From Tubulanus polymorphus (lineage: Eukaryota > Nemertea > Palaeonemertea > Tubulaniformes > Tubulanidae), in contig NC_134033.1 of NCBI RefSeq assembly GCF_964204645.1, positions 15,750,155-15,814,154 of the forward strand: a stretch of DNA of 64,000 nt, written 5' to 3'. The translations under genes were made by a program, and so were the position numbers. The notes below the pieces were generated by a model, which did no database searches, was not told where the DNA came from, and worked only from the letters and a program-made list of their open reading frames with translations. Below are positions 1-54,494 of this stretch, in pieces; within the stretch, counting starts at the first letter, position 1, and each line of letters starts with the position of its first letter.

Positions 1-3000
1 TATCCGACGATTTATTTTGCGTTTCTGATGAAACTCGAATCGACCTAAAACGAAATAGAATAACGATGATATTGGAAACGAAAGTAAAGCAAGCGATGAT
101 CCAGATAACTGCTGTGAGGACAGTGTTCTCAATGAGGTCTGAACACGATGAGAATTGATCAGGATCCGGGAGACACCGGTCAATATTCGGTGCCATACAA
201 CAGAATTTATACGCGTCCGAAGCGAGAAAATATAAAGACGTCAAATTATCGAAGATATTATTTTCCACAGAAATTATCCGAGAGTTGTTGGTGATATCTA
301 GAACTCCCAGTGAACTCAACCCAGTAAACGCGTATCTGGATATTGATCTGATAGCGTTACTGCTGATATTCAAATATTTCAGCGCTGGTAAACCTCGGAA
401 TACGTTACGAGTAAGAGCCGATATAGAGAGACCGTGCAGATCCATAACCGGAAGTGACGTCAAACCGTTGAAGCTTCCGTCGTTCAAATATCTCAGCGGA
501 TTTCCAGCGAGTAAAAGTTGTTTTAAACTGTTTAAACCAGTGAATATATCAGCATGTAGTGATACTAGGTGATTATAGGACAGATCTAATATATTTAGAT
601 TGCGTAGATTAGAAAACGCGTTGGAGACAATATCAGATAAATCATTACGGGAAATATTGAGTATAAAAAGGTATAAAAATGGAGAAAATGTCGATTCATT
701 GAATCTAACTCGGTTATTCGATAAAATCAGAACGCGAGTCGACGCCGCAAAAATTTTAGAAATATCTGATAATAAAGCGTTTTCACAATCAATCAAACGA
801 CCTTGACATTTACAGTAGTTAGGACACGTGACGTCGCAGAAAGCCTCGTCATCCGAGTTGTGTTTACAATTTACGACGCCATCGCAAACTTCCGACTGAG
901 GAATACATCTGTGTTCATCACCGCATTTCAACATTCCTGGACACGAAAACGTTTCACAGTTGAATTCATCTTCTGAATGAGGACAATCTGATCGACCATC
1001 GCACACGTGTCTAATCGGTATACAGTAAGACGATGGACATTTCACTGTACCAGCTGCACATTCAAACTCGTTACAATTCAGTAAATGTTCGAGTCTTCTA
1101 CAAACAGGAAAACCTGACGACATTCTTTCTAAAATACATCTATCTCTTCTCGCGTAACAATGAGGAGAATTGAATGAACATCTTTGTTTATCCGATTCTG
1201 TACAGAGTGAAGTGAAATTGGTCGTGCAGTAGTTCTCTTTAGTGCAGTGAATTTGTGGTTTAATCGTTATGTCGGTTGTTACTATTTCATCTTCTTCGAG
1301 GTCCCCGCCACAATCTACAACACCATCCCGGAACAACAGAGAACTGATACATTCGCCATTTACACACAAAAACCCGTTACATTCGTCGGAAGAGCAGACG
1401 ATTTCATCGGATTTATCTTTACAATCAACCAGTCCATCACATCGTTTATATTTACCCACACATTGTCCGTTTTTACACTTAAACTGTTCAGAGGAACATA
1501 AAGTATGATAGCACGAGTTCTCATCTGATCCGTCAGCGCAATCTCGTACAAAATCACATAAATTACTCACTGATATAACTTCTCCATCTGAACACTGGAA
1601 CTGACTGTGTAAGTTTGAACCCGAACAATCGAGTTCATCTTCACCGTGTTGACAGTCGTTTCTAGTATCACATACGCGATGGTCGCTGATACATCTTTGA
1701 TCGTTACATTGAAACTGCCACGATTTACATCCGCTTATAGAAGCTAACTCTTCACCAGTTACATTATAGGAACATAGCACGGAATGAACTACATTTGTCC
1801 CATTATCGAAGGCAGTCACTGACCATTTCACTGTTTTAATATACGTTATCCAATCTCTAATTACAACTGGTTTTATTGCCACAATTCTTCCGCTTGTATG
1901 ATTAGTCAGTATAGCGCCATATTGATGCTGATAGTGGAAAACATTTATCAAATTCTGAATATCAATATTAGATGTTATTATACCTATGTCTCCACCGATT
2001 GTAAGACAGATTTCTTTGGCTGTCTGGATTGTTAGACTTTTAGTATGGAGCGTTTTCCAGGCTGTAAGTATCTGATAGCAATGCGCTTCTATATGAATCC
2101 ATCCTCTCAGACACGTGGAGTTAAATCGTTTAAAGTTGTTGCGTGTTATTTCAGTTGTATCGTTTTGTGAAGATGGATTAAAGTCTTTTCTTTCTGTTTC
2201 GCAAATGAATGTTGTATGTATTTGTATGATTTGACACGGGAATCGAACCCAGTTCGCTGATCCTCGTGGATTATTCAGTATCATCGCCGCACACGGCATA
2301 TTGACGTCATTTATCGGTTGTTTTAGTTGGGGAGATATCAATCCTAGAATAACTTCTGGTATTGTTTCATTAACAGCAGGTTTAAACCACTCTGTGTAAC
2401 TCAACGGTTTTCCATCAGACCACGAGTAATAACCACTGGACTCCTTTAAAAACAAACAAACACGTGTTATACATTAGTGAACATTCTTATTAGATTTTTT
2501 CCTGTGTTCTATATTTTTAGAAATAACTCAACAAGTGGTTAGAAAATTAATCACAATATCCAAATGTTAATGATAAAATAAATTGCATGTTACCTGCCAT
2601 TTCAATCCAATCATCACAATAAGTCCCGCCTGTGAATATGCCTCATGAAGCAGTTTTGTAGCGAACCGTTTTTTTACGGCCATCATTTCATGTTGAGAGT
2701 TGATACTAAGAAGATGTCCTCCATATTTCTGTTGACAGTAAATTTCAGCGTTTTCCCAATTCAGACGTTTGTGTTTGATGTATCTAATACACGAAACACC
2801 AGAATCTAGAAAATCTGATCGGCAGCCATTAATTAGATTTTTCAGTAAAGGCGATTGTTCTAAAGTGTATTGAATTTTAAATATTGGCATGTACCCCTCA
2901 GTCTTGAAGTACAAGTCATACCCGAGTAGACTGTACAATACAAGTCCTGCTACTGCGTTATTTTCACATACTTTCGTTATATGACGGGTTTCCGATATAA

Positions 3001-5271
3001 ATGACAATAATAAATTGTTCGGGTCATCAAATATTTTGATAATTTGTGTCAGTGATATTGATTCCCTGGTGCGATAATCAAGAGATTTAGAGCATGATGT
3101 TTGTCCGATAAATTTAAACAGGAATCTGATGTAATAATTTATATTTTTGTCAGTAGGATTAGAAAAATCAAAGAATTGTGTTTTATGAAAGGAAGAAAAT
3201 CCAGGGAAGTTTGGTGACTGCACGAGTCCACAATAATCAATCTTTTTTATTCCACCAATAAGAATTCGCATCACTTGAATTATCTTTAATTTCTGACATT
3301 TACGCCGTAATACAATCATTAGTGGTGACCTCCAGAATTCATATTTAGTGCGCAATAATTTCACGTGGTTTAATACGAGACTGGTATTAAACACATGATT
3401 ATTGAGACTTATCGCTGAACAGGGATTCCTGGCTCCACGATAACAACTGTCAATTTGATATTCATGATCTGATAAAACATCTATATTTTCTATCGGTAAG
3501 CGTCGATTTTCAGGTGTAATCACGAGACAATGTGATGTCATAGTGATCTGGCGTTCTCCCTCCCGTAGAACATACCCGTCACAGTCGGTAGGAACAAACA
3601 TGAGGTCACGAGTTGATACTAGTTTATCATGCCAGTTGTAAGCGTATGTTACTACAGTAACCGGTCCTCCTGATGTAATCAGACTAACAACAGATCGACC
3701 ATCATAGTTTCCCAGACCAGCAGGACAATACGGACCATAGCGTCTAGCTGTAAAATTACTACCATCATATATATAAAATCCAGCTCTTTCACAATTCTCT
3801 GATAAAACTGTTAGTTTTAATCCAGACTCATAGATGTCGATTTTCGAGCTGAGTGCAAATCTACTGACACGATATTGTAACTTCCGTTTCGAATGTCTAG
3901 GGATGATATGAAAGAATGGCACTTTATGACCATATAATATCTACAATATATTTGAAAATAAAAACATATTATGAGGATTTTATTATTACGATATTTTCTG
4001 CCTCAATACAATAAATCGGCAGCATATTTTGTGTTTTTACTCACTTTTTTATTTTCCACTTTGACGTCTGTTTCCTTCAATGATTCTATTTTGTATTCGA
4101 TCAATGTTGAATTTCTAAACGATTTTCCGACAAAATTCTCTGATAACAGTAAACACAATATCACGAGAAATCCGTCAGATTTTACACTTAAAGATTCCAG
4201 GTAGTTTTTACCGAGTAAAATATCAGTTCCGACAACCGTTAAACCTTCCAGTTTATAAACACCGATGACGTCACCGGAAGTGACGAGATCACGTGACCAG
4301 TTGAAGACGACGTACTGCAGTATTTCAGCTCTGATAAACCAGCAGTATAAGCGTTTAGACTGAGTTATTACGTGCGGCCTATCACCAGGTATGAGCACTC
4401 CGGATTTGTTTTTGTAGATCGGAATCGATGGATTAGAAATATTCCAATCAGATATTCTATACATTTTAACGAATAGATTAGTTTTGAGCTCTGACTGGAC
4501 CTGTTTCATTGAAAAAGTGACGATAGCTTTGTTAGTTTTAGTGTAAATAGAGATGGGCGGATGTCCGGTTTGTTCCCGTATATTCATTATAGGTTCACTT
4601 GAGTTCCATCCGTCATAAATCTGAACGGTCACATATAAACCTGCTTGTTTGATTCTAAAATCTATTTTCTCAAAAGTCAAATTCATACCGAATCCCTCTG
4701 GTATCCCGGACCACTCCAGCCGGAAGAGGTGACAAAGTATATTCATGTAGATGGCAAATTTATAACCAGTTCTAATAGTTTGTAATTGTTTTATTCTGTT
4801 TGAGTGACAGTCGTGAACAGTTTTTAAATGTATTTCCTCCAAACGATAAAATACATAAACTCGACTTCCTTTCACAACATCATTTACATCACTCTTGAAC
4901 ATCAACGATAATGAATTACTGCGGTAAATATCTAATTGTTTTCCATCACCGCACAGTAAGTTATCAGAATCGCTGATGCGAAGATAGTTATCTCTACAGA
5001 ATATAGACTGTTCGATGTCGTAGTAAACTTGGATGTAAAAGGTACTTGGTAAAGAGCTGTTGATGAACCAATAACATTGAACACCGCGCGTAAACGACGG
5101 ATAATTCGGTGAAACGATGTAACCGGACGTAGAATCGAGTGAAAACCACGTATTGTTACACCGTGAACTGACAGTTACAGACGGTTGATCGGTAGAGATC
5201 CGATCAGTCGTCTGAACCGACGACAGTTTCATTAGTAGAATGAGTAATAACGTTAAGAGACTACGCGTCAT
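1..5271 (-). CDS. Copy A: GRL101-like CUB/C-type lectin/LDLa/LRR receptor (GPCR), 3' end outside window
   Basis: First member of the tandem array, read right to left. Exons: 4045-5271 (409 codons), 2594-3940 (449 codons) and 2443 to beyond position 1, all joined in phase 0. Donors are AAA|GTGAGT and CAG|GTAACA; acceptors are TTGTAG and TTTAAAG. Exon 1 encodes a signal peptide (MTRSLLTLLLILLMKLSS) and CUB-like modules. Exon 2 adds CUB-like modules and the first half of a C-type lectin fold. Exon 3 holds the rest of that fold, a second lectin-like domain, LDLa repeats, leucine-rich repeats and the start of the 7TM region. The window edge cuts it just after TM1, in the first intracellular loop. 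Exon 3 aligns with copy B at a constant offset of 8648 bases, so I see no frameshift. Its exon 2 has divergent patches against B and C, notably around 3229-3297. Ligand unknown; a surface recognition role is inferred from the domains. Confidence 0.85.
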
Positions 5272-5496
5272 GTTGACATTCTCCTCGATCAGTTTAACTC
5301 TAACTACAGCGAATAGATTTTAATCCAATTAATGTAGGGCGTTTCCCAGTGAATATGGATAGAGCTGGATGAGACTGACTCGGACTACACGGCGACCGTA
5401 AAAAGAAATTCAATAATCTACGAAACCGAATTAATGATTAACGAGATTTAAACGAGGTGTAAAAATATAATTCGATATCTAATGCCGAGTCAGTTC

Positions 5497-5502
5497 TATA
5501 TA
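5497..5502 (-). promoter_or_regulatory. Possible TATA box of receptor copy A
   Basis: On the minus strand TATATA lies about 226 bases before the copy A ATG, directly followed by a block (CTGACTCGGCAT) kept in all three copies. Position conservation is the only support; the transcription start is not known. Confidence 0.3.
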
Positions 5503-5570
5503 CATACCATTTTTCAATGTTATTTCAAAACTCTAAATACGTTCTATTTCGAATACTGTCTCTGCCTTGA

Positions 5571-5690
5571 CGTAAGGTGCTGCCGCAATACTCCTTGTAA
5601 GTGGGTTTTCTAGATACTGACTTTAGTCGACTCTGGCCATCGACGTGTTGAGGAGCACGTGGCGATTACCAGAGGCGATTCATATTTTTT
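5571..5690. mobile_element. Half of a palindromic MITE-like element (CCGTAAGGTGCTGCCGC family)
   Basis: Begins CGTAAGGTGCTGCCGC and runs through the element's left arm and centre, with a degenerate right arm. It is the array copy of the family seen complete at 6324-6489 and 55283-55442. No coding capacity. Confidence 0.55.
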
Positions 5691-6323
5691 TTATCTTGAA
5701 ATAGGTATTAAACCTGTAATCTATTTGATTCGTAAAGATTTACAATAATCTTATTGTGAATAGTTTTATTTCTTATTCATATGTCAACCTGGAAGCGGAG
5801 ACAAAGTACAAAAGATAAAGAGTGAATTAAAGTGACAGTGATTAATAGTGAATATATCATCATATTACATAATATTTGCATCAATCACGAACCCTGGGTT
5901 CTTGTAGATCAGATAATTCAAAATTTCCTGATAGTCACCTGATATTCCCTGACAGATTTTCAAGAAAACTGTTCCGGAATCCGGAATTCGCTGATTTCCC
6001 TGATCTGTATAAGAACCCTGTAAATCATTGTGCTGATTACTTTCCCAGTCTTGTGTCGGTTCACTAAATTTTAAAATCAAAAACAAAGTTTCCGAATATT
6101 TCAGTGCGGCTTGTTACTTCGGTAAATATTCATTATGATTCTCGAGGATAGAAAATAGAGTGCGTTTGCATCGCGGATTTAGGGATCACCGGGATAATTC
6201 TCAGATACCAACCGAAGAGGGAGCGATGGTTGTCAGTCATAACGAACAAGGGCACGGGATAATCAGAGATAATCGGTTCCGTTGTAAGCGCAGTCTTGTG
6301 CAGCGCGTAGTTCGTAGTAGGTA

Positions 6324-6489
6324 CCGTAAGGTGCTGCCGCTATGCTCGTCGTAAGCGGATTTTCCAGACACTAATCTCAGCCAACTCTGGCAACCAACTT
6401 GCAGAAGAACAAGTCTCGGTTGCCAGAGTCGGCTCGTATTAGTGTGTGAAATATCCGCTAACGACGAGCATAGCGGCAGCACCTCACGG
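6324..6489. mobile_element. Palindromic MITE-like element, complete
   Basis: About 166 bases with long inverted arms: the left end CCGTAAGGTGCTGCCGC is mirrored by GCGGCAGCACCTCACGG at the right end, and the GCTCGTCG...TAGCGG and CTCTGGCAACC blocks are mirrored inside. It is non-coding and would fold into a near-perfect hairpin. The superfamily is not identifiable from this alone. Confidence 0.7.
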
Positions 6490-7869
6490 AATATCGTTAC
6501 TACGGATGACTGCGCCAGAAAATGCTGTCCGTTATAATCGATAGTTTTAGAACTTCGTTCGCGCGACTAGATAACGACTAATATCTATATAATACTCATT
6601 AATAGTTTACGGCGAAATGTTTTTGGTTGTGTACAAAATTCCGTTTGACGAAGCGACGCTTTTGATTTTAACGGGACCGGAATAATACACCAATTGTCTT
6701 TCACCAGCGCCGACTCGCAACGTCTGTCGACGTTACACTTGAAAACGCAGTCGTCACCTTTTTACTTCTTACAAATATATTCTATTTGTCTATTTATTAT
6801 TCAATTGCTTATTCATTTATGTGTCTATTACATTTCATTCTCGTTTTTTGTTATCGGTAGTAGTGAATCATTTTGTTTTTGCGAATACATTTGAACCTCT
6901 ATATTTATGCATCTATAGTGTGTACAGTGGTGGTTGTGGAAGCATTTTGACATTTGTAAATATAATATAATAATCATTGCATGCATTGGACATTAGAATA
7001 CATGGCTGCGCCGGTCACTGAGTCGTTTGTCTCGCATGGCGGGAGTACGCGTGATAATCAGAGGCTTTCGACTCGCACCGGGGGCTAAACGCTAATAATA
7101 CTTCATGAAATCTAAGTTCGATATGATTCGAAAGAATATTGCTCATTCACATTTCGAAATTGATCGTTTTTTCCAGATGTCAGAATAAGAGCTATGTTTT
7201 ATTCTTATTTTCATCATTTTAGGTCCGCAATAAAATCCAATTTTCGAGAGAATCAAAAAAGACGTCACAAACTTTTTTCGTTGTTGGATAATTTTTGCTT
7301 TTCTAAATGTAATTCAGAGATACATAATAAAAACTAGATGATATTCATAGACTGTGTATAATATTTATCTTGAATTGTTTTGTGTTCGAGACATAATTCA
7401 ATCATCTTTTCGACCGTGCACCACTCATAAATGCTGGTGGATCCGGACTCCGAGTAAAGCTCTGGTCTGTTTTTGTCCTACAATGTATAATCTACCGGTA
7501 ATGTTCTTTTGTAACTGCAGATTTTAACAAATCGATATAAATGCGCAGAAGGCTATAAGAACTCTTTCCATTTCTGTAACTAAACCCTTGGAGTAATCAT
7601 ATTGTCAAATGATTCATAACCATGAGTGTTAATTTCTCCTCGAGAGTAAAATACAGTATTGGATCTTGGGTCATTTACTGTAACGAGGTAGCAAGTGATT
7701 ATGGGGCGAATCGGGCCGATTATTGGTTGTCGTCACACGAATCAAGACCCGCGATAATCTCCGGTAATCCGAGCTACAGTAAAAATCATCTTTAACCCGA
7801 TTTGTTTCGTAAATAAATTCGATCCGATCGTAAATAAGATATAGATTTCATTTGCACAACGCCGTGAGG

Positions 7870-10800
7870 CTATTTGTTTGGTTTTCTGCGTTTATTTCGA
7901 GCTCGTATGGATTTCATATCGATTGTTAGAATAGTATAAAGAAGTGGGTTCAGAGTTGAGTTTATCGGTAAGAAAAGAACGGCCAGCCAAGCGGCGACCT
8001 GGTTCGGTATCTCGACCAAAAATACGGCGCACAACTGAACGATTATTAACGGTAACCAGCAAAATAAATTACACAAATTGATGACTAAACTGCGTCGAGC
8101 TAGAACGAGTTCTGTAGGATCAGCTCTACCCGAACCGGACCTGCTTCCGGATACATACTTGTACATCTGAGCGTACGACATCATTATCAGAGTGAGAATA
8201 ATCGCGTTTAATACAGCGAATATAGCGAACGAATATTGCCAACCATTGACATCTATAGATATTAAATTCATAGGTAAACAGATACCCGTGCTACCGTAAA
8301 AATTATCACCGAAATAAGATGAACGGGACAGCGGCAGAAAGGCGATGAAACTCAGAAATATCCAGCATAAACAAGACAGAATCATAATAATATTTGAGGA
8401 TAAAACTGGGTTACCAGAAAATGGATCGACGATATTCGAATATCTGAAACGCGTGAGGAGAAAGAGAAATGTTAAAGAACCTTCACAAGATATCGTCACC
8501 ACAATTCCTGCAACGCTGCATAATGAACTGCGAGTCCAAGTTTCAGAATACAGAAAATAAACACCTTTATAAACGTGATCAGTTCCAGCGATCAGAAACA
8601 GATAAACAGACATCAGCAAATCACAAAGCGCGATATTAATGATGAGGATATCTGAAGATTTATTTCGCGTTTCTGATGAAATTCGAATCGACCTAAAACG
8701 AAATAGAATAACGATAATATTGGAAACGAAAGTAAAGCAAGCGATGATCCAGATAACAGCTCTGAGAACAGTGTTCTCAATGAGGTCTGAACACGATGAG
8801 AATTGATCAGGATCCGGGAGACACCGGTCAATATTCGGCGCCATACAACAGAATTTATACGCGTCCGAAGCGAGAAAATATAAAGACGTCAAATTATCGA
8901 AGATATTATTTTTCACAGAAATTATCCGTGAGTTGTTGGTGATATCTAGAACTCCCAGTGAACTCAACCCAGAAAACGCGTATCTGGATATTGATATGAC
9001 TGCGTTACTGCTGATATTCAAATATTTCAGCGCTGGTAAACCTCGGAATACGTTACGAGTAAGAACCGATATAGAGAGACCGTGCAGATCCATAACCGGA
9101 AGTGACGACAAACCGTTGAAGCTTCCATCTTCCAAATATCTCAGCGGATTTCCAGCGAGTAAAAGTTGTTTTAAATTGTTTAAACCAGTGAATGTATCAG
9201 CGTGTAGTGATACTAGGTGATTATACGACAGATCTAATATATTTAGATTGCGTAGATTAGAAAACGCGTTGGAGACAATATCAGATAAATCATTACGGGA
9301 AATATTGAGTATAAAAAGGTATAAAAATGGAGAAAATGTCGATTCATTGAATCTAACTCGGTTATTCGATAAAATCAGAACGCGAGTCGACGCCGCAAAA
9401 ATTCCAGAAATATCTGATAATAAAGCGTTTTCACAATCAATCAAACGACCTTGACATTTACAGTAGTTAGGACACGTGACATCGCAGAAAGCCTCGTCAT
9501 CCGAGTTGTGTTTACAATTAACGACGCCATCGCAAACTTCCGACTGAGGAATACATCTATTTTCATCGCCGCATTTAAACATTCCCGGACACGAAAACGT
9601 TTTACAATTGAATTCATCTTCTGAATGAGGACAATCTGATCGACCATCGCACACGTGTCTAATCGGTATACAGTAAGACGATGGACATTTCACTGTACCA
9701 GCTGCACATTCAAACTCATTACAATTCAGTAAATGTTCGAGTCTTCTACAAACAGGAAAACCTGTTGACATTCTTTCTAAAATACATCTATCTCTTCTCG
9801 CGTAACAATGAGGAGAATTGAATGAACATCTTTGTTTATCCGATTCTGTACAGAGTGAAGTGAAATTGGTCGTGCAGTAGTTCTCTGTAGTGCAGTGAAT
9901 TTGTGGTTTAATCGTTATGTTTGTTGGCACTATTTCATCTTCTTCGAGGTCCCCGCCACAATCTACAACACCATCCCGATACAACAGAGAACTGATACAT
10001 TCACCATTTACACACAAAAACCCGTTACATTCGTCGGAAGAGCAGCCTATTTCGTCGGATTTATCTTTACAATCAACCAGTCCATCACATCGTTTATATT
10101 TACCCACACATTGTCCGTTTTTACACTTAAACTGTTCTGAGGAACATAAAGTATGATAGCACGAGTTCTCATCTGATCCGTCAGCGCAATCTCGTACAAA
10201 ATCACACACATTACTCACTGATATAACTCGTCCATCCGAACACTGGAACTGACTGTCTAAGTTTGAACCCGAACAATCGAGTTCATCTTCACCGTGTTGA
10301 CAGTCGTTTCTATTGTCACATTCGCGATGGTCGCTGATACATCTTTGATCGTTACATTGAAACTGCCACGATTTACATCCGCTTATAGAAGCTAACTCTT
10401 CACCAGTTACATCATAGGAACATAGCATGGAATGCGCTACATCTGTGATATCATCGAAGGCAATCACTGACCATTTCACTGTTTTAATATACGTTATCCA
10501 ATCTCTGATTACAACTGGTTTTATTGTCACAATTCTTCCGCTTGTACGATTAGTCAGTATAGCGCCATATTGATGCTGATAGTGGAAAACATTTATCAAA
10601 TTCTGAATATCAATATTAGATGTTATTATACCTATGTCACCTCCGATTGTAAGACACATTTCTTTGGCTGTCTGGATTGTTAAACTTTTAGTATGGAGCG
10701 TTTTCCAGGCTGTAAGTATCTGATAGCAATGCGCTTCTATATGAATCCATCCTCTTAGACACGTGGAGTTAAATCGTTCAAAGTTGTTGCGTGTTATTTC

Positions 10801-13800
10801 AGTTGTATCGTTTTGGGAAGATGAATTAAAGTCGTTTCTCTCTGTTTCACAAATGAATGTTGTATGCGTTTGTATAATTTGACACGGGAATCGAACCCAG
10901 TTCGCTGATCCTCGTGGATTATTCAGTATCATCGCTGTACACGGCATATTGACGTCATTTATCGGTTGTTTTAGTTGGGGAGATATCAATCCTAGAATAA
11001 CATCTGGTATTGTTTCATTAACAGCAGGTTTAAACCACTCTGTGTAACTCAACGGTTTCCCATCAGACCACGAGTAATAACCACTGGACTCCTTTAAAAA
11101 CAAACAAACACGTGTTATACATTATTGAATATTTTTTTTTAGATTGTTCTATTATTTTAGAAATAACTCAATATCTCAACACGTGGTGATAAACTTATCA
11201 AAATTTCCAAATGTTTGTGATAAAATAAATTGCATGTTACCTGCCATTTCAATCCAATCATCACAATAAGTCCTGCTTGTGAATATGCCTCATGAAGCAG
11301 TTTTGTAGCGAACAGCTTTTTTACGGCCATCATTTCTTGTTGAGAGTTGATACTGAGAAGATGTCCTCCATATCTCTGTTGACAGTAAATTTCAGCGTTC
11401 TCCCAATTCAGACGTTTATGTTTGATGTATCTAATACACGAAACACCAGAATCTAGAAAATCTGATCGGCAGCCATTTATTCGATGTTTCAATAAAGGAG
11501 ATTTTTCTAAAGTGTATTGAATTTGAAATATTGGCATGAACTCTGACAGCTCGAAATACAAGTCATACCCGAGTAGACTGTACAATACAAGTCCGGCTAC
11601 TGCGTTATTTTCACATATTTTTGTTATATGACGGGTTTCTGTAAACGCGGAAAATAAATCGTTTGGATCGTCAAATATTTTGAAAATTTGTGTCAGTAAT
11701 ATTGATTCCCTGGTGTGGTAATCCGTAGATGTAGAGCATGATGTTTGTCCGATAAATTTAAACAGGAATCTGATGTAATAATTTATATTTATGTCGGATG
11801 AAAAAGAAAAAATATAGAATAATTGTGCAGTATAGGTAGTTAATCCAGGGAAGTCCGGTGACTGCACGAGTCCACAATGAATCTTATTTCTCGTGTTCCC
11901 TCCCATAAAACCTGGATTGCGTTGACTCAGTTTTAGTTTCTGACATTTACGTCGTAATACAATCATTAGTGGTAACCTCCAGAATTCATATTTAGTGCGT
12001 AATAATTTCACATGGTTTGATACGAGACTGGTATTTAACACGTGACTATTGAGACTTATCACTGAACAGGGATTCCTAGCTCCACGATAACATCTGTCAA
12101 TTTGATATTCATGTTCTGATAATACATCTATGTTTTCTATCGGTTGGCGTCGATTTTCAGGTGTAATCACGAGACAATGTGACGTCATAGTGAGCTGACG
12201 TTCTCCCTCCCGTAGAACATACCCGTCACAGTCGGTAGCAGCAAACACGAGGTCACCAGTTGTTACTAGTATATCATGCCAGTTGTAAGCGTATGTTACT
12301 ACAGTAACCGGTCCTCCTGATGTAATCAGACTCGGAACAGATCGACCATTGTTTCCCAGACCATCAGGACAATACGGACCATAGCGTCTAGCTGTAAAAT
12401 TTGCACCATCATATATATAAAATCCAGCTCTCTCACAATTCTCTGATAAAACTGTTAGTTTTAATCTATAATTTGATCGTATATCCTCATAGATGTCGAC
12501 TTTCGAGCTGAGTGCAAATCTACTGATACGATATTGTAACTTCCATTTCGAATATCTGGGGAACAGATTAGAATGTGACACTCTCCGATAGTATGGTACC
12601 TACAAAAGATGCAAACATGAAGTAGATCATCAGCATCCAATGAAATATTTCATGCCTTATTTATATTTACCATTCCACAGCAAAATATTGCCACTTGACC
12701 ATTCTAAACGAATTATGTTCGAAAGAAAGTTGGTAGCTCGAGTCAAATTTAAAAGTTTTAAACATTTCGTCATTGTCATTGAGAAAAAAACCCACAAAAA
12801 ACTGTCGACATATTTTCGTGCTGTTTTACTCACTCCTTTATTTTCTACTTTGACGTCTGTTTCCTTCAATGATTCTATTTTGTAGTCGATCAATGTTGAA
12901 TTTCTAAACGATTTCCCGACAAAATTCTCTGATAACAGTAAACACAATATCACGAGAAATCCGTCAGATTTTACGCTTAAAGATTCCAGGTAGTTTTTAC
13001 CGAGTAAAATATCAGTTCCGACAACCGTTAAACCTTCCAGTTTATAAACACCGATGACGTCACCGGAAGTGACGAGATCACGTGTCCAGTTGAAGACGAC
13101 GTACTGCAGTATTTCAGCTATGATAGACCAGCAGTATAAGCGTTTAGACCGAGTTATTACGTGCGGCCTATCACCAGGTATGAGCACTCCGGATTTGTTT
13201 TTATAGATCGGAATCGATGGATTAGAAATATTCCAATCTGATATTCTATACATTTTAACGAATAGATTAGTTTTGAGTGATAATCGGACCTGTTTCATTG
13301 AAAAAGTGACGATAGCTTTGTTAGTTTTCGTGTAAATAGAGATGGGCGGATGTCCGGTTTGTTCCCGTATATTCATTATAGGTTCACTTGTGTTCCATCC
13401 GTCATAAATCTGAACGGTCACATATAAACCTGCTTGTTTGATTCTAAAATCTATTTTCTCAAAAGTTAAATTCATACCGAAACCCTTTGGTATCCCGGAC
13501 CACTCCAGCTGGAGGAGACGACAAGTTAACATGTAGATGGCAAATTTGTAACCAGTTTTAATAGTTTGTAATTGTTTTATATATTTTGAGGAACAGTCGT
13601 GAACAGTTTTCAGATGTTTTTCCTCCAAACGATAAAATACATAAACGCGACTTCCTTTCACAACATCATTTACATCACTCTTGAACATCAACGATAATGA
13701 ATTACTGCGGTAAATATCTAATCGTTTTCCATCACCGCACAGTAAGTTATCAGAATCGCTGATGTGAAGATAGTTATCTCTACAGAATATAGACGGCTCG

Positions 13801-14057
13801 ATGTCGTAGTAAACTTGGACGCGAAAGGTACCCGGTAAAGAGCTGTTGATGAACCAATAACATTCAACACCGCGCGTAAACGACGGATAATTCGGTGAAA
13901 CGATGTAACCGGACGTAGAATCGAGTGAAAACCACGTATTGTTACACCGTGAACTGACAGTTACAGACGGTTGATCGGTAGAGATCCGATCAGTCGTCTG
14001 AACCGACGACAGTTTCATTAGTAGAATGAGTAATAACGTTAAGAGACTGCGCGTCAT
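7870..14057 (-). CDS. Copy B: complete GRL101-like CUB/C-type lectin/LDLa/LRR receptor (GPCR)
   Basis: Complete gene, exons 12834-14057 (408 codons), 11241-12599 (453) and 7870-11091 (1073 plus stop), all phase 0, giving about 1934 residues. Order: signal peptide 1-20; CUB-like modules through about 780; C-type lectin domain about 785-943, split by intron 2; second lectin-like domain about 971-1085; six LDLa modules about 1100-1397, of which two lack cysteines; Cys-rich LRR cap (CPNYCKC) and about eight LRRs 1400-1605; 7TM about 1636-1911. Seen in the 7TM: the NIALCD Asp of TM2, Cys in TM3 and loop 2, FCWLP in TM6 and NPLLY in TM7. The D/ERY site at the end of TM3 reads LTRFRY. The tail is short and basic. 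LDLa+LRR+rhodopsin 7TM is the plan of snail GRL101 and relaxin receptors; the CUB and lectin modules are extra. The first ATG is chosen because a signal peptide follows directly. Confidence 0.9.
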
Positions 14058-14282
14058 GTTGACATTCTCCTCGATCAGTTTAACTCTAACTACAGCGAAT
14101 AGATTTTAATCCAATTAATGTTGGGCGTTTCCCAGTGAATATGGATAGAGCTTGATGAGACTGACTCGGACTACACGGCGACCGTAAAAAGAAATTCAAT
14201 AATCTACGAAACCGAATTAATGATTAACGAGATTTAAACGAGGTGTAAAAATATAATTCGATATCTAATGCCGAGTCAGTTC

Positions 14283-14288
14283 TATATA
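14283..14288 (-). promoter_or_regulatory. Possible TATA box of receptor copy B
   Basis: Same position and sequence (TATATA, then the conserved CTGACTCGGCAT block) as in copy A, about 226 bases before the ATG on the minus strand. Confidence 0.3.
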
Positions 14289-14355
14289 CATACCATTTTT
14301 CAATGTTATTTCAAAACTCTAAATACGTTCTATTTCGAATACTGTCTCTGCCTTG

Positions 14356-14475
14356 ACGTAAGGTGCTGCCGCAATACTCCTTGTAAGTGGGTTTTCTAGA
14401 TACTGACTTAAGTCGACTCTGGCCATCGACGTGTTGAGGAGCATGTGGCGATTACCAGAGGTGATTCATATTTTT
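14356..14475. mobile_element. Half of a palindromic MITE-like element in spacer B/C
   Basis: Duplicated counterpart of 5571-5690, carried along by the array duplication rather than inserted independently. Confidence 0.5.
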
Positions 14476-15112
14476 TTAAATCTTAGAATAGGTATTAACC
14501 CTGTTATCTATTTGATTCGTAAAGATTTACAATAATCTTATTGTGAATAGTTTTATTTCTTATTCATATGTCAACCTGGAAGCGGAGACAAAGTACAAAA
14601 GATAAAGAGTGAATAAAAGTGACAGTGATTAATAGTGAATATATCATCATATTACATAATATTTCCATCAATCACGAACCCTGGGTTCTTGTAGATCAGA
14701 TAATTCAAAATTTCCTGATAGTAATCTGATATTCCCTGACAGATTTTCAAGAAAACTGTTCCGGAATCCGGAATTCGCTGATTTCCCTGATCTGTACATG
14801 AACCCTGTAAATCATTGTGCTGATTACTTTCCCAGTCTTGTATCGGTTCACTAAACTTTAAAATCAAAAACAAAGTTTCCGAATATTTCAGTGCGGCTTG
14901 TTACTTCGGTAAATATTCATTATCTTCTCGTGGGTAGAAAATAGAGTGCGTTTGCATCGCGGATTAAGGGATCACCGGGATAATTCTCAGATACCAACCG
15001 AAGATGGAGCGACGATGGGTTGTCAGTCATAACGAATAGGGGCACGTGATAATCAGAGATAATCGGATCCGTTGTAAGCGCAGTCTTGTGCAGTACGCAG
15101 TTCTGTAAGGTG

Positions 15113-15268
15113 CTGCCGCTATGCTCGTCGTTAGCGGATTTTCCAGACACTAATCTGAGCCACATCTGGCAACCAACGTGCAGAAGAACAAGTGTCGGTT
15201 GCCAGAGCCGGCTCGTATTAGTGTGTGAAATATCCGCTAACGACGAGCCTAGCGGCAGCACCTCACGG
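15113..15268. mobile_element. Palindromic MITE-like element in spacer B/C
   Basis: Duplicated counterpart of 6324-6489. The arms CTGTAAGGTGCTGCCGC and GCGGCAGCACCTCACGG face each other, so the insertion predates the array duplication. Confidence 0.7.
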
Positions 15269-16648
15269 AACATCGTTACTACGAATGACTGCGCCAGAAA
15301 ATGCTGTCCGTTATAATCGATAGTTTTAGAACGTCGTTTCCGCGACTAGATAACGACTAATATCTATATAATACTCATTAATAGTTTACGGCGAAATGTT
15401 TTTGGTTGTGTACAAAATTCCGTTTGACGAAGCGACGCTTTTGATTTTAACGGGACCGGAATAATACACCAATTGTCTTTCACCAGCGCCGACTCGCAAC
15501 GTCTGTCGACGTTACACTTGAAAACGCAGTCGTCACCTTTTTACTTCTTACAAATATATTCTATTTGTCTATTTATTATTCAATTGCTTATTCATTTATG
15601 TATCTATTACATTTCATTCTCGTTTTTTGTTATCGGTAGTAGTGAATCATTTTGTTTTTGCGTATACATTTGAACCTCTATATTTATGCATCTATAGTGT
15701 GTACAGTGGTGGTTGTGGAAGCATTTTGACATTTGTAAATATAGTATAATAATCGTTGCATGCATTGGACATTAGAATACATGACTGCGCCGGTCACTGA
15801 GTCGTTTGTCTCGCATGGCGGGAGTACGCGTGATAATCAGAGGCTTTCGACTCGCACCGGGGGCTAAACGCTAATAATACTTCATGAAATCTAAGTTCGA
15901 TATGATTCGAAAGAATATTGCCCATTCACATTTCGAAATTGATCGTTTTTTCCAGATGTCAGAATAAGAGCTATGTTTTATTCTTATTTTCATCATTTTA
16001 GGTCTGCAATAAAATCCAATTTTCGAGAGAATCAAAAAAGACGTCACAAACTTTTTTCGTTGTTGGATAATTTTTGCTTTTCTAAATGTTATTCAGATAT
16101 ACATAATAAAAACTAGATGATATTCATAGACTGCGTATAATATTTATCTTGAATTGTTTTGTGTTCGAGACATAATTCAATCATCTTTTCGACCGTGCAC
16201 CACTCATAAATGCTGGTGGATCCGGACTCCGAGTAAAGCTCTGGTCTGTTTTGGTCCTACAATGTATAATCTACCGGTACTGTTCTTTTGTAACTGCAGA
16301 TTTTAACAAATCGATATAAATGCGCAGAAGGCTATAAGAACTCTTTCCATTTCTGTAACTAAACCCTTGGAGTAATCATATTGTCAAATGATTCATAACC
16401 ATGAGTGTTAATTTCTCCTCGAGAGTAAAATACAGTATTGGATCTTGGGTCATTTTCTGTAACGAGGTAGCAAGTGATAATCGTGCGAATTGGGCCGATT
16501 ATTGGTTGTCGTCACACGAATCAAGACCCGCGAAAATCTCCGGTAATCCGAGCTACAGTAAAAATCATCTTTAACCCGATTTATTTCGTAAATAAATTCG
16601 ATCCGATCGTAAATAAGATATAGATTTCATTTGCACAACGCCGTGAGG

Positions 16649-19600
16649 CTATTTGATTGGTTTTCTGCGTTTATTTCGAGCTCGTATGGATTTCATATCG
16701 ATAGTTAGAATAGTATAAAGAAGTGGGTTCAGAGTTGAGTTTATCGGTAAGAAAAGAACGGCCAGCCAAGCGGCAACCTGGTTCGGTATCTCGACCAAAA
16801 ATACGGCGCACAACTGAACGATTATTAACGGTAACCAGCAAAATAAATTACACAAATTGATGACTAAACTGCGTCGAGCTAGAACGAGTTCTGTAGGATC
16901 AGCTCTACCCGAACCGGACCTGCTTCCGGATACATACTTGTACATCTGCGCGTACGACATCATTATCAGAGTGAGAATGATCGCGTTTAATACAGCGAAT
17001 ATAGCGAACGAATATTGCCAACCATTGACATCTATAGATATTAAATTCATAGGTAAACAGATACCTGTGCTACCGTAAAAATTATCACCGAAATAAGACG
17101 ACCGAGACAGCGGCAGAAAGGCGATTAAACTCAGAAATATCCAGCATAAACAAGACAGAATCATAATAATATTTGAGGATAAAACCGGGTTACCGGAAAA
17201 TGGATCGACGATATTCGAATATCTGAAACGCGTGAGGAGAAAGAGAAATGTTAAAGAACCTTCACAAGATATCGTCACCACAATTCCGGCAACGCTGCAT
17301 AATGAACTGCGAGTCCAAGTTTCAGAATTCAGAAAATAAACACCTTTATAAACGTGATCAGTTCCTGCGATCAGAAACAGATAAACCGACATCAGGAAAT
17401 CACAAAGCGCGATATTGATGATGAGGATATCCGACGATTTATTTTGTGTTTCTGACGAAACTCGAATCGACCTAAAACGAAATAGAATAACGATAATATT
17501 GGAAACGAAAGTAAAACAAGCGATGATCCAGATAACAGCTGTGAGGACAGTGTTCTCAATGAGGTCTGAACACGATGAGAATTGATCAGGATCCGGGAGA
17601 CACCGGTCAATATTCGGCGCCATACAACAGAATTTATACGCGTCCGAAGCGAGAAAATATAAAGACGTCAAATTATTGAAGATATTATTTTTCACAGAAA
17701 TTATCCGTGAGTTGTTGGTGATATCTAGAACTCCCAGTGAACTCAACCCAGAAAACGCGTATCTGGATATTGATTCGATTACGTTACTGCTGATATTCAA
17801 ATATTTCAGCGCTGGTAAACCTCGGAATACGTTACGAGTAAGAACCGATATAGAGAGACCGTGCAGATCCATAACCGGAAGTGACGTCAAACCGTTGAAG
17901 CTTCCATCTTCCAAATATCTCAGCGGATTTCCAGCGAATAAAAGTTGTTTTAAATTGTTTAAACCAGTGAATGTATCGGCATGTAGTGATACTAGGTGAT
18001 TATAGGACAGATCTAATATATTTAGATTGCGTAGATTAGAAAACGCGTTGGAGACAATGTCAGATAAATCATTACGGGAAATATTTAGTATAAAAAGGTA
18101 TAAAAATGGAGAAAATGTCGATTCATTAAATCTAACTCGGTTATTCGATAAAATCAGAACGCGAGTCGACGCGGCAAAAATGTTAGAAATATCAGATAAA
18201 GAAGCGTTTTCACAATCAATCAAACGACCTTGACATTTACAGTAGTTAGGACACGTGACGTCGCAGAAAGCCTCGTCATCCGAGTTGTGTTTACAATTAA
18301 CGACGCCATCGCAAACTTCCGACTGAGGAATACATCTGTGTTCATCACCGCATTTAAACATTCCTGGACACGAAAACGTTTCACAATTGAATTCATCTTC
18401 TGAATGAGGACAATCTGATCGACCATCGCACACGTGTCTAATCGGTATACAGTAAGACGATGGACATTTCACTGTACCAGCTGGACATTCAAACTCATTA
18501 CAATTCAGTAAATGTTCGAGTCTTCTACAAACAGGAAAACCTGTCGGCATTCTTTCTAAAATACATCTATCTCCTCTCGCGTAACAATGAGGAGAATCGA
18601 ATGAACATCTTTGTTTATCCGATTCTGTACAGAGTGAAGTGAAATTGGTCGTGCAGTAGTTCTCTGTAGTGCAGTGAATTTGTGGTTTAATCGTTATGTC
18701 GGTTGTTACTATTTCATCTTCTTCGAGGTCCCCGCCACAATCTACAACACCATCCCGATACAACAGAGAACTGATACATTCACCATTTACACACAAAAAC
18801 CCGTTACATTCGTCGGAAGAGCAGACGATTTCATCGGATTTATCTTTACAATCAACCAGTCCATCACATCGTTTATATTTACCCACACATTGTCCGTTTT
18901 TACACTTGAACTGTTCAGAGGAACATAAAATATGATAGCACGAGTTCTCATCTGATCCGTCAGCGCAATCTCGTACAAAATCACATAAATTACTCACTGA
19001 TATAACTCGTCCATCTGAACAGTGGAACTGACTTTGTAAGTTTGAACCCGAACAATCGAGTTCATCTTCACCGTGTTGACAGTCGTTTTTAATGTCACAT
19101 ACGCGATGGTCGCTGATACATCTTTGATCGTTACATTGAAACTGCCACGATTTACATCCGCTTATAGAAGCTAACTCTTCACCACCAGTTACATTATAGG
19201 AACATAGCACAGAATTAACTACATCTGTCCCATTATCGAATGCAGTCACTGACCATATCACTGTTTTAATATACGTTATCCAATCTCTAATTACGACCGG
19301 TTTTATTGCCACAATTCTTCCGCTTGTATGATTAGTCAGTATAGCGCCATATTGATGCTGATAGTGGAAAACATTTATCAAATTCTGAATATCAATATTA
19401 GATGTTATTATACCTATGTCACCTCCGATTGTAAGACACATTTCTCTGGCTGTCTGGATTGTTAAACTTTTAGTGTTGGGCGTTTGCCAGGCTGTAAGTA
19501 TCTGATAGCATTGCGCTTCTATATGAATCCATCCTCTTAGACACGTGGAGTTAAATCGTTCAAAGTTGTTGCGTGTTATTTCAGTTGTATCGTTTTGTGA

Positions 19601-22600
19601 AGATGGATTAAAGTCGTTTCTTTCTGTTTCACAAATGAATGTTGTATGCGTTTGTATAATTTGACACGGGAATCGAACCCAGTTCGCTGATCCTCGTGGA
19701 TTATTCAGTATCATCGCCGTACACGGCATATTGACGTCATTTATCGGTTGTTTTAGTAGAGGAGATATCAATCCTAGAATAACATCTGGTATTGTTTCAT
19801 TAACAGCAGGTTTAAACCACTCTGTGTAACTCAATGGTTTCCCTTCAGACCACGAGTAATAACCACTGGACTCCTTTAAAAACAAACAAACATGTGTTAT
19901 ACTGAATATTCTTTTTAGATTGTTCTTTTATTTTAGAAATAACTCAATATCTCAACCCGTGGTGAGAAAATTAATCACAATTTCCAAATGTTTATGATAA
20001 AATAAATTGCATGTTACCTGCCATTTCAATCCAATCATCACAATAAGCCCCGCCTGTGAATATGCCTCATGAAGCAGTTTTGTAGCGAACAGCTTTTTTA
20101 CGGCCATCATTTCATGTTGAGAGTTGATACTGAGAAGATGTCCTCCATATTTCTGATGACAGTAAATTTCAGCGTTCTCCCAATTCAGACGTTCATGTTT
20201 GATGTATCTAATACACGAAACGCCTGAATCTAGAAAATCTGATCGGCAGCCATTGCTTCTATGTTTCAGTAAAGGTGATTGTTCTAAAGTGTATTGAATT
20301 TGAAATATTGGCATGAACTTTGACAGCTCAAAATACAGGTCATACCCGAGTAGACTGTACAATACAAGTCCTGTTACTGCGTTATTTTCACATAATTTTG
20401 TTATATGACGGGTTTCTGTAAACGCGGAAAATAAATCGTTTGGATCATCAAATATTTTGATAATTTGTGTCAGTAATATTGATTCCCTGGTGTGGTGACT
20501 AGTAGATTTAGAGCATGATGTTTGTCCGATAAATTTAAACAGGAATCTGATGTAATTACTTATATGCATGTCGGTAGAAAAAGAAAAAACATAGAACAAT
20601 TGTGCAGTACCGGTAGGTAATCCAGGGAAGTTAAGTGACTGCACGAGTCCACAATAATCTATCTCATTCCTTCCACCAATAGCGGCCGGAAAGCCTCGTT
20701 TTAATTTCTGACATTTACGCCGTAATACTATCATTAGTGGTGAACTCCAGAATTCATATTTAGTGCGCAATAATTTCACGTGGTTTAATACGAGACCGGT
20801 ATTTAACACGTGACCATTGAGACTTAACGCTGAACAGGGATTCATACCTTTACGATAACAACTGTCAATTTGATATTCATGTTCTGATAATACATCTATG
20901 TTTTCTATCGGTAGGCGTCGATTTTCAGGTGTAATCACGAGACAATGTGACGTCATAGTGATCTGACGTTCTTTTCCCCGTAGAACATACCCGTCACAGT
21001 TAGTAGGAGCAAACTTGAAAAAAACAGTTGCTAGTAGATCATGCCAGTTGTAAGCGTATGTTACTACAGTAACCGGTCCTCCTGATGTAATCAGACTCAC
21101 AACAGATCGACCATAGTTTCCCAGACCAGCAGCAGGACAATACGGACCATAGCGTCTAGCTGTAAAATTACCACCATCATATATATAAAATCCAGCTCTC
21201 TCACAATTCTCTGATAAAACTGTTAGTTTAAATCCAGACTCATAGATGTCGATTTTCGAGCTGAGTGCAAATCTACTGATACGATATTGTAACTTCTGTT
21301 TTGAATATCTGGGGAACAGATTAGAATGTGACACTTCATGGTGATACAGCACCTACAACAGATTTAAACATAATGCGAGTCATCATTAATCACAATTAAA
21401 ATGTTAATGATTTATATTAAAAAATTATAAATCGGTAAAATGTTTCGTTAAAACTTAGAGATTGTATCATCATCTTATTGGTTTGAAAACAAACTAAAAT
21501 CACTACAATGAATTCACCACATATTTTCGTGCTGTTTTACTCACTTTTTTATTTTCCACTTTGACGTCTGTTTCTTTCAATGATTCTATTTTGTATTCGA
21601 TCAATGTTGAATTTCTAAACGATTTCCCGACAAAATTCTCTGATAACAGTAAACACAATATCACGAGAAATCCGTCAGATTTTATACTTAAAGATTCCAG
21701 GTAGTTTTTACCGAGTAAAATATCAGTTCCGACAACCGTTAAACCTTCCAGTTTATAAACACCGATGACGTCATCGGAAGTGACGAGATCACGTGACCAG
21801 TTGAAGACGACGTACTGCAGTATTTCAGCTGTGATAGACCAGCAGTATAAGCGTTTAGACTGAGTTATTACGTGCGGCCTATCACCAGGTATGAGCACTC
21901 CGGATTTGTGTTTGTAGATCGGAATCGATGGATTAGAAATATTCCAATCTGATATTCTATACATATTAACGAATAGATTAGATTTGAGGTATAATCGGAC
22001 CTGTTTCATTGAAAAAGTGACGATAGCTTCGTTAGTTTTCGTGTAAATAGAGATGGGCGGATGTCCGGTTTGTTCCCGTATATTCATTATAGGTTCACTT
22101 GTGTTCCATCCGTCATAAATCTGAACGGTCACATGTAAACCTGCTTGTTCGAATCTAAAATCTATTTTCTCAAAAGTCAAATTCATACCGAATCCCTCTG
22201 GTATCCAAGACCACTCCAGCCGGAAGAGGCTACAAAATCTATCCATGTAGATGGCAAATTTGTAACCAGTTTTAACAGTTTGTAATGGTTTTATATATTT
22301 TGAGGAACAGTCGTGAACAGTTTTCAGATGTTTTTGCTCCAAACGATAAAATACATAAACTCGACTTCCTTTCACAACATCATTTACATCACTCTTAAAC
22401 ATCAACGATAATGAATTACTGCGGTAAATATCTAATCGTTTTCCATCACCGCACAGTAAGTTATCAGAATCGCTGATGTGAAGATAGTTATCTCTACAGA
22501 ATATAGACGGCTCGATGTCGTAGTAAACTTGGACGCGAAAGGTACCCGGTAAAGAGCTGTTGACGAACCAATAACATTCAAATCCGCGCGTAAACGACGG

Positions 22601-22771
22601 ATAATTCGGTGAAACGATGTAACCGGACGTAGAATCGAGTGAAAACCACGTATTGTTACACGGTGAACTGACAGTTACAGACGGTTGATCGGTAGAGATC
22701 CGATCAGTCGTCTGAACCGACGACAGTTTCATTAGTAGAATGAGTAATAACGTTAAGAGACTGCGCGTCAT
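16649..22771 (-). CDS. Copy C: complete GRL101-like CUB/C-type lectin/LDLa/LRR receptor (GPCR)
   Basis: Rightmost array member. Exons: 21545-22771 (409 codons), 20018-21352 (445) and 16649-19873 (1074 plus stop), all phase 0, about 1928 residues. Domain plan and order match copy B: signal peptide, CUB-like modules, split C-type lectin domain, second lectin-like domain, LDLa modules, LRRs and 7TM. The 7TM keeps the same altered TRF motif and the NPLLY motif. Exon 3 differs from B by scattered substitutions and one extra codon (ACC ACC in the stretch before the first LDLa). Exon 2 differs more, with different residues and lengths at 20651-20705 and about 20995-21040. Intron 1 (21353-21544) does not align with those of A or B beyond its ends. 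It is probably the array end, because sequence homology stops about 210 bases upstream of its ATG. Confidence 0.9.
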
Positions 22772-23000: not shown

Positions 23001-23069
23001 TTAATAAAATTTCAAAAATTTCTACATTCAAGATTTCTCAATTATTTCCAATAGTACAACTAGCTTGTC

Positions 23070-23215
23070 GTGAGGCTATGCTCGTCGTTAGCGGGTTTTC
23101 TAGACGCTTACTTCAGTCGACAGTGGCAAACTTGAGGAGCACGCGTTGGTTGCCTGAGTCGATTCACATTCGTGTATGAAAATCGCGCTAACGATGAGTT
23201 AGCGGTAGCTACCTC
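23070..23215. mobile_element. Diverged palindromic MITE-like element at the array edge
   Basis: GCTATGCTCGTCGTTAGCGG on the left is mirrored by CGCTAACGATGAGTTAGCGG on the right, with the usual mirrored centre around GTCGA. It belongs to the CCGTAAGGTGCTGCCGC family but is more degraded. It sits about 70 bases beyond the point where copy C stops matching A and B. Confidence 0.55.
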
Positions 23216-23328: not shown

Positions 23329-23804
23329 CAGTCGACCCCCGATATATCGCCCTCTACCGCCACCCCCGCCTACTGCCAGGTTTTCTCAATGTACATCTCA
23401 ATACAAATACATAGTAAGACACCCCTGATATACCGCCCTCCCATATACCGCCACCCCCGCCTACTGCCAGGTTTTCTCAATGTACATCTCAATACAAATA
23501 CATAGTAAGACACCCCTGATATACCGCCCTCCCATATACTGCCACCCCCGCCTACTGCCAGGTTTTCTCAATGTACATCTCAATACAAATACATAGTAAG
23601 ACACCCCTGATATACCGCCCTCCCATATACCGCCACCCCCGCCTACTGCCAGGTTTTCTCAATGTACATCTCAATACAAATACATAGTAAGACACCCCTG
23701 ATATACCGCCCTCCCATATACCGCCACCCCCGCCTACTGCCAGGTTTTCTCAATGTACATCTCTATACAAATGCATAGTAAGACACCCCCGATATACCGC
23801 CCTC
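23329..23804. repeat. 91-bp minisatellite inside a possible TIR element
   Basis: About five units with an exact 91-base period, measured on the CATAGTAAGACACCCC motif at 23410, 23501, 23592, 23683 and 23774. The array opens with CAGTCGACCCCCGATATATC, and that theme (CCCCCGATATACCGCCCTC) recurs at its right end, as if a short transposon end had been amplified. Confidence 0.8.

Positions 23805-35656: not shown

Positions 35657-39100
<3,444 letters not shown>

Positions 39101-46496: not shown

Positions 46497-54494
<7,998 letters not shown>

Follow-up and report, generated by a model that had tools for sequence, protein, structure and literature searches.

How a relaxin-receptor-like protein would come to carry CUB and C-type-lectin-like modules at its N-terminus, and why neighbouring copies of its gene differ most in the middle, are questions raised by a locus of the nemertean Tubulanus polymorphus. 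The window analysed here is the whole 64,000-nucleotide stretch of contig NC_134033.1 from positions 15,750,155 to 15,814,154; all coordinates below are counted within it.

Three receptor genes in tandem

The locus consists of an 8.7-kb direct repeat that corresponds to three head-to-tail genes on the minus strand (genes A, B and C), the strand of all features below except the intergenic spacer, to which no strand is assigned. Gene C (16649..22771; exons 22771-21545, 21352-20018 and 19873-16649) and gene B (7870..14057; exons 14057-12834, 12599-11241 and 11091-7870) are complete, with 1928 and 1934 aa respectively, while gene A (1..5271; exons 5271-4045, 3940-2594 and 2443-1) is cut by the window's left edge and encodes at least 1672 aa, its sequence ending shortly past TM1 with the rest of its 7TM outside the window. 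The three tandem genes of a preliminary description are thus present, and the length of about 1930 residues given there holds for B and C, A being truncated. On the exon 1 side the repeats are spaced 8,786-8,789 and 8,711-8,714 bp apart, over much of the exon 2-3 side 8,647-8,648 and 8,768-8,782 bp, and neighbouring units are covered by a single BLAST match (8,576 bp at 95.4%), in agreement with the local expansion described earlier. Right of position 23100, a tblastn search with protein B as query (E up to 1) detected no additional copy in the window.

All six introns (three exons per gene) are GT..AG and in phase 0. None of the three copies contains an internal stop, whereas random substitution would be expected to produce ∼14-15 per pair among the 270-300 coding differences, and gaps in the aligned coding part are multiples of three. 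The regular repeat, the open frames and the in-frame gaps therefore place a three-gene array far beyond chance, and we read the locus from its sequence as three tandem genes, each predicted to encode one chain from exons 1-3, with A cut by the window edge. Scans of viral_contigs and genome_contigs, with two peptide patterns each, gave 86 and 34 pattern matches respectively, among which no relative was confirmed; as these collections by description hold no animal genomes, the empty scans say nothing on rarity.

Module order of the predicted chain

From N- to C-terminus the chain starts with a signal peptide, a clear CUB domain and a sub-threshold one; ∼500 residues without any match follow, then two C-type-lectin-like domains, the second degenerate, and finally LDLa modules, LRRs and a rhodopsin 7TM. 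CUB domain 1 (gene C, aa 45-135; 22367..22639) scores 39.1 bits against a Pfam cut-off of 21.4, and 43.7-44.4 bits in B (exon 1 of A was scanned in part), and also matches cubilin and MASP. Probable CUB domain 2 (gene C, ∼aa 190-256; 22004..22204) falls within the third of exon 1 that diverges most and stays below the same cut-off in C, B and A (15.0, 17.5 and 18.9 bits), with weak matches to C1s (E 0.06-0.26). The several CUB-like modules first proposed are therefore reduced to one that is clear and one that is probable, no more having been found.

In gene C the divergent ectodomain core, made up of intron 1 and the first two thirds of exon 2 (20465..21544), belongs to no recognised family. 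No Pfam family was matched in any of six segments (four of gene C and one apiece of B and A) drawn from exon 1 past residue 280 and from exon 2 ahead of the lectin domain. The core of gene C contains a CUB-style start, CGLVQSxxFPG, at ∼20653; a PDB search with the CGLVQSPDFPG segment of B gave one match, to desmocollin (E 0.13) and not to a CUB domain. The AlphaFold model of exon 2 built with the three copies (mean pLDDT 26.9, pTM 0.17) is too poor for a fold search. Comparison of nine ectodomain segments in 36 pairs by hhalign revealed no internal repeats, with a maximum probability of 7.6% (CUB1 against the final stretch of that core in exon 2). Since neither lectin half was linked to the lectin-like module that follows (0.13% and 0.07%), nor CUB1 to probable CUB2 (0.09%), this repeat test is insensitive and decides nothing. 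Four weak NCBIfam matches to bacterial models were rejected as far under cut-off.

C-type-lectin-like domain 1 (19631..20248) is split by intron 2 (20017-19874), and in B, the copy in which splicing was tested, Lectin_C scores 38.9 bits for exons 2 and 3 joined versus 20.6 for exon 2 alone (cut-off 22.6). The second module (19196..19546), starting CLRGWIHIEAxCY, is degenerate; in B it has no Pfam match and four weak PDB matches (E 0.4-1.0), all to C-type-lectin folds, so that of two lectin-like modules originally suggested one is clear. Classical sugar-binding C-type lectins possess EPN/QPD and WND calcium-site motifs. Compared by eye in the spliced domain, B and C have QPIN and NWVRF at these places, a replacement that, as far as such motifs are a guide, speaks against a sugar-binding C-type lectin and against the carbohydrate binding initially attributed to these receptors.

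The LDLa region (18263..19156) comprises six Pfam stretches in C, B and A alike; four stretches of B, picked by eye among ten raw pattern matches, show LDLa-type six-cysteine spacing. The LRR region (17570..18253; LRR_8, 83.3 bits in C), with a Cys-rich N cap (CPNYCKC) and a hinge (CCMAP...CSDL), sits directly before the rhodopsin-type 7TM (16715..17539), which is RXFP1-like and has a short C-tail. Among solved structures the 7TM of B scores 147.9 bits with RXFP1, compared to 68.4 with LHCGR, 64.0 with FSHR, 53.5 with TSHR and 35.3 with LGR4, consistent with the GRL101/relaxin-receptor kinship previously noted for the LDLa-LRR-7TM part. Several LDLa modules precede the LRRs, as in GRL101 and type C2 LGRs, rather than the single module of RXFP or type C1 LGRs, and the proteins have no Pfam match to the GAIN/GPS domain that marks adhesion GPCRs. 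By these features the receptors are classed as type-C LGRs (relaxin/GRL101 branch), probably most like GRL101, which does not figure among the PDB matches listed. E/DRY, CWxP and NPxxY are motifs of signalling-competent rhodopsin GPCRs. Here CWLP and NPLLY are present, and FRY replaces E/DRY in both complete copies, B and C; RXFP1 has EKY at this place. G-protein signalling, as proposed at the outset, is plausible from CWLP and NPLLY, with FRY weighing on the other side.

Comparison with known receptors

RXFP1/2 (type C1 LGRs) give the closest solved match for the 7TM and the LRR-7TM part, and to our knowledge have no CUB or lectin part. Sea urchin Sp185/333, a further system of interest, is not a GPCR. 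Like the present array, its immune genes are clustered and similar, and they lie in unstable repeats (PMC5103432). RXFP1/2 have an N-terminal LDLa module (PMC4837482), as opposed to six stretches here. Lymnaea GRL101 and type C2 LGRs share several LDLa modules, LRRs and a relaxin-receptor-like 7TM with our proteins, but Lymnaea GRL101 has twelve LDLa modules and six LRRs, and the relevant part of the source mentions no CUB or lectin module (PMC8286064). The Ciona LDLRR-GPCR/LGR-like expansion is also lineage-specific, with 32 receptors, 30 of them with a relaxin-receptor-like TM part and some with LDLa repeats; LRRs are named in two only, and the account given describes no lectin head and, as far as it goes, no CUB head (PMC2396169). 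Amphioxus receptors likewise join CUB, lectin C or LDLa modules to a 7TM (PMC2246102), but are of the adhesion family, whose GPS/GAIN match is absent from the present proteins.

The SudRes2 locus of the snail Biomphalaria sudanica contains a dense cluster of 12 GRL101-like genes, 10 with all three ectodomain types. The locus, rich in lectin-bearing GRL101 genes, is associated with schistosome resistance, and a recognition role has been suggested, while its strongest variants fall in a neighbouring gene that is not of the GRL101 kind (PMC12297450). As in these receptors, C-type lectin, LDLa, LRR and rhodopsin 7TM are here combined in one chain and clustered, so the architecture initially regarded as unusual was to that extent already published (PMC12297450). 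Unlike SudRes2, for which CUB occurs 0 times in the main text (PMC12297450), the present receptors have one clear and one probable CUB domain and ∼500 unrecognised residues before the lectin domain, and a divergence peak within the array is mapped. No CUB-bearing LGR is described in the passages of open-access papers that were consulted, although such receptors may already be annotated in animal protein databases.

A divergent core between similar ends

The copies differ from one another by 1-3% in spacer and 5' flank sequence; the figure is 3-5% for exons 1 and 3, rises to 9-12% for exon 2 and reaches 36-41% for intron 1. Between B and C it is 2.6% in the spacer (n=2356), 3.0% in the 5' flank, 3.5% in exon 1, 35.9% in intron 1 (n=184), 9.1% in exon 2, 5.6% in intron 2 and 3.4% in exon 3. 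The spacer between C and B (14288..16648) is 2.6% diverged from that between B and A, a low value that could partly reflect constraint. Intron 1 has conserved donor and acceptor ends around a core that cannot be aligned reliably, both in gene B (12600..12833, 234 nt) against A or C and in gene A (3941..4044, 104 nt) against B or C, which limits its divergence figure; its excess over the spacer has a p of about 1e-45, from counts worked back from rounded fractions. The sequence comparison, new in this analysis, thus shows a strongly divergent ectodomain core flanked by low divergence on both sides.

In all three copy pairs, which are not independent, exon 2 exceeds exon 3 in synonymous differences (p 4e-4, 9e-6 and 0.015), reaching 0.14-0.20, and replacement changes are enriched in exons 1 and 2 together relative to exon 3 (p 0.019, 0.021 and 0.002). 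Between B and C the 7TM has 20 synonymous versus 7 replacement differences. Copy-specific sites are unevenly spread along the unit (p 7e-4), those of A being high at the end of exon 2 and in intron 2. As dN/dS is below 1 for every exon and pair (exon 1 0.54-0.87, exon 2 0.57-0.60, exon 3 0.28-0.35), diversifying selection is not demonstrated. pN/pS is above 1 in 7 of 39 pooled 50-residue windows, as raw ratios, and one more has no synonymous change; three of the seven fall in the LDLa/LRR part, outside the core. Selection alone is ruled out as the cause of the divergence, intron 1 and synonymous sites being raised as well.

Competing explanations and a putative role

It is very improbable that exons 1-2 and exon 3 are separate genes, a secreted CUB protein beside an LDLa-LRR GPCR. 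While the intron 1 join is predicted from splice signals and frame, joins are in phase 0 in all three copies with conserved splice ends, and the lectin domain of B is complete only when exon 2 meets exon 3, so the single chain first described is supported. We give equally little credence to an assembly effect placing one gene's alleles side by side: alleles of a heterozygous invertebrate could differ by the 2.6-4.7% observed along much of the unit, but there are three different copies with continuous spacers and no N characters in the window, and the divergent block is explained no better.

Two further explanations accept the array and would account for its core differently. It is unlikely, in our estimate, that the array is a mosaic by descent, with a core block that is older or was recombined in from paralogues or haplotypes of greater divergence, and whose differences are under no functional selection. 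The elevation common to silent sites and introns and the patchiness of copy-specific sites agree with such an origin; the replacement excess in exons 1 and 2 does not, while in-frame indels and the lack of stops show function rather than selection for difference and so leave it unweakened. Slightly less probable still is a recent amplification of an ordinary GRL101-type hormone receptor that binds an insulin/IGF-like peptide, its added modules forming a passive stalk and its core being weakly constrained. Type C2 LGRs have been proposed as IGF receptors (PMC8286064), the LRR and LDLa regions are well conserved and dN/dS stays below 1, but weak constraint alone does not give such values in intron 1 and at exon 2 synonymous sites beside a spacer at 2.6%, and in ambulacrarians each such receptor is reported as one ortholog only (PMC8286064).

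The explanation we favour, at roughly even chances, is an array of GRL101-type type-C LGRs, extended N-terminally by CUB and C-type-lectin-like modules, that serve in recognition, with ends that are homogenised and a core that diversifies. The distal CUB/unrecognised/lectin-like head would catch a large extracellular ligand, whether a non-self surface, a parasite, a gamete or a food cue. Capture would be relayed to the 7TM by the LDLa/LRR stalk, on the model of relaxin receptors, whose LDLa module does the same and is required for RXFP activation (PMC3822782); the 7TM would then signal via a G protein. Unequal crossing-over and gene conversion may keep the receptor ends alike, with selection for different specificities holding the cores apart. 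The recognition role in the preliminary description remains inferential, with the divergence map as added support: near-identical signalling ends and a differing ligand-facing middle are as might be expected of sensors for varied targets. Counting against this explanation are the dN/dS values below 1, the core, which has no recognised fold or family, the missing acid of E/DRY and the position of the strongest SudRes2 variants outside the GRL101 genes.

More speculatively, and with rather low probability, the locus may represent a germline-diversified GPCR recognition system of the invertebrate immune or self/non-self class, in which gene conversion homogenises the promoter, signal peptide, LRR and 7TM and an exon-2-centred, possibly CUB-like cassette is kept different between copies, perhaps alleles, coupling many specificities to one output that would run directly through a heterotrimeric G protein. 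Well-known innate recognition receptors have kinase, TIR or ITAM-like outputs. If the present receptors are a diversifying tandem family with CUB and lectin-like capture on a relaxin-receptor-type 7TM, a rhodopsin-class GPCR would be sensing patterns or self/non-self directly. The schistosome-resistance association of the snail GRL101 lectin locus makes this sensing idea testable (PMC12297450), and the divergence map puts exon 2 ahead of both the 7TM and the lectin-like domain as the first part to test.

Structure of the receptor array

A direct tandem repeat, ending near position 23001, occupies the leftmost 23 kb of the window, with one minus-strand gene per unit: A (1..5271, cut by the window's left edge), B (7870..14057) and C (16649..22771). 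Adjacent units are 95.4% identical across an 8,576 bp match, with copy spacings, taken on the exon 1 side, of 8,786-8,789 and 8,711-8,714 bp. Joined at conserved GT..AG sites, always in phase 0, the three exons encode 1928 aa in C and 1934 aa in B, while A is readable for 1672 aa up to the window end. No copy contains a stop, whereas about 14-15 per pair would be expected had the differences arisen by random substitution, and all coding indels in the aligned part are multiples of three.

The proposal in the preliminary description that exons 1-2 and exon 3 encode one chain is supported at the sequence level by these phase-0 joins and by a C-type lectin domain, within which exon 2 ends, that the exon 2-3 join would complete; in B this domain scores 20.6 bits from exon 2 alone and 38.9 bits when joined to exon 3 (Pfam cut-off 22.6). 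Exon 1 begins with a hydrophobic stretch whose hydropathy is consistent with a signal peptide. Intron 1 (104, 234 and 192 nt in A, B and C) has a common donor, GTGAGTAA, and TTGTAG acceptor in all three copies around an unalignable core. In B, reading in frame from exon 1 through this intron (12600-12833) gives IIRLEWSSGNILLWNGKYK, which by eye, and in this copy only, is similar to the RLEWS stretch that exon 1 has in its second CUB-like module; the read-through may be what remains of a CUB exon that was lost.

Ectodomain and transmembrane modules

Of the CUB modules previously proposed, one stands above cut-off, in exon 1 of C and B (among solved structures, the three-copy profile comes closest to cubilin and MASP), and a second, also in exon 1, is only sub-threshold, in all three copies. 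Exon 1 residues 280-409 and the first ~365 residues of exon 2 gave no family match in the segments scanned; this stretch may consist of divergent CUBs, the internal comparison of ectodomain segments being low in power. The first C-type lectin-like domain spans exons 2-3. Judged by eye, it appears to lack the classical sugar-site motifs, so the carbohydrate binding earlier attributed to it is unsupported.

Exon 3 further encodes a degenerate lectin-like module, six LDLa stretches, LRRs and the 7TM. Searched whole against the PDB, it finds LRP2 chains at the top, via the LDLa part, and the best match spanning LRR and 7TM is RXFP1. With the 7TM alone RXFP1 scores 147.9 bits, and the runner-up among leucine-rich-repeat GPCRs (LGRs) less than half as much. 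CWLP and NPLLY motifs are present, and the E/DRY position reads FRY in B and C.

Divergence between copies

Divergence lies mainly in intron 1 and the unrecognised ectodomain core (the first two thirds of exon 2), the lectin-like domain being better conserved between copies. B and C differ by 2.6% in the spacer (compared for this pair only, A's spacer lying beyond the window), 3.0% in the 5' flank, 3.5% in exon 1, 35.9% in intron 1, 9.1% in exon 2, 5.6% in intron 2 and 3.4% in exon 3. Pairs with A have a similar profile (5' flank 0.9-2.2%, exon 1 4.3-4.7%, intron 1 36-41%, exon 2 12%, intron 2 17-21%, exon 3 3.4-3.7%), and copy-specific sites are unevenly placed along the unit (p = 7e-4). The peak 150-bp coding window reaches 21-25% in all three pairs and lies in exon 2 (20751-20602 of C). 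Exon 1 has a lesser peak over the probable second CUB: 10.5% of sites vary in the exon's middle third, versus 3.9% in the remaining two thirds.

Synonymous sites follow the same pattern, with dS of 0.14-0.20 in exon 2 versus 0.05-0.08 in exons 1 and 3; exon 2 exceeds exon 3 significantly in every pair, and exons 1 and 3 do not differ significantly (p = 0.57, 0.44 and 0.09 for the three pairs). The relative share of replacement changes is higher in exons 1 and 2 together than in exon 3 (p = 0.019, 0.021 and 0.002); B-C differences within the 7TM comprise 7 that replace a residue and 20 that are synonymous.

The spacer is about three times less diverged than the silent sites of exon 3 and about 14 times less than intron 1. 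Barring constraint on the spacer as well, this contrast is not readily explained by a single duplication age with differing constraint. Either conversion or unequal crossing-over has homogenised the ends of the unit while the core escaped, or the core was acquired by exchange with copies that had diverged further. A profile of this shape would be maintained by selection favouring differing core specificities. As dN/dS is below 1 for all exons in all pairs, and three of the seven windows with pN/pS above 1 (out of 39) fall in the LDLa/LRR part, such selection is no more than an inference.

Relationship to known receptors

The array shares LDLa, LRR and a relaxin-type 7TM with GRL101 and the type C2 LGRs, as that plan is described (PMC8286064, PMC11863921, PMC4079206). 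In Biomphalaria sudanica, a lectin domain is reported as added to the GRL101 plan in the tandem cluster of SudRes2. That region shows an association with resistance to schistosomes, though its strongest variants lie in an adjoining non-GRL101 gene; the authors call the lectin domain unique to the SudRes2 GRL101 genes (PMC12297450). The Tubulanus array shows that the tandem combination of lectin, LDLa, LRR and 7TM recurs. Whereas the Biomphalaria account stresses the lectin domain, here that domain varies less than the core. Relaxin-receptor-like GPCRs with LDLa repeats are reported as expanded in Ciona (PMC2396169), and CUB, lectin C and LDLa modules among amphioxus adhesion GPCRs (PMC2246102); among the results viewed from searches of the open-access literature, CUB-specific queries included, there was no CUB-bearing LGR.

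Other features of the window

A repeat of ~150-170 bp (76-81% identity) is dispersed at 6322-6491, 15101-15268, 23075-23215 and 55286-55444. Between the two copies within the array the match shown is in inverted orientation, despite the direct orientation of the receptor units; the element is hence partly self-complementary itself, and it is probably a small mobile element. Just outside the array's right end lies a 91-bp unit in tandem (23355-23804, 4.9 copies, 98% matches), and further right a C2H2 zinc-finger frame (24144-25007) and a long (TA)n run of ~142 units (35660-35945). A single open frame on the plus strand (42255-43388) encodes a PID_2 phosphotyrosine-interaction domain (162.8 bits) and is presumably FAM43-like. 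The minus strand carries a gene frame for a small protein that looks secreted and has two trefoil (P-type) stretches (54039-54497) and a 470-aa open frame matching Glycosyltransferase family 11 (56094-57506, 103 bits).
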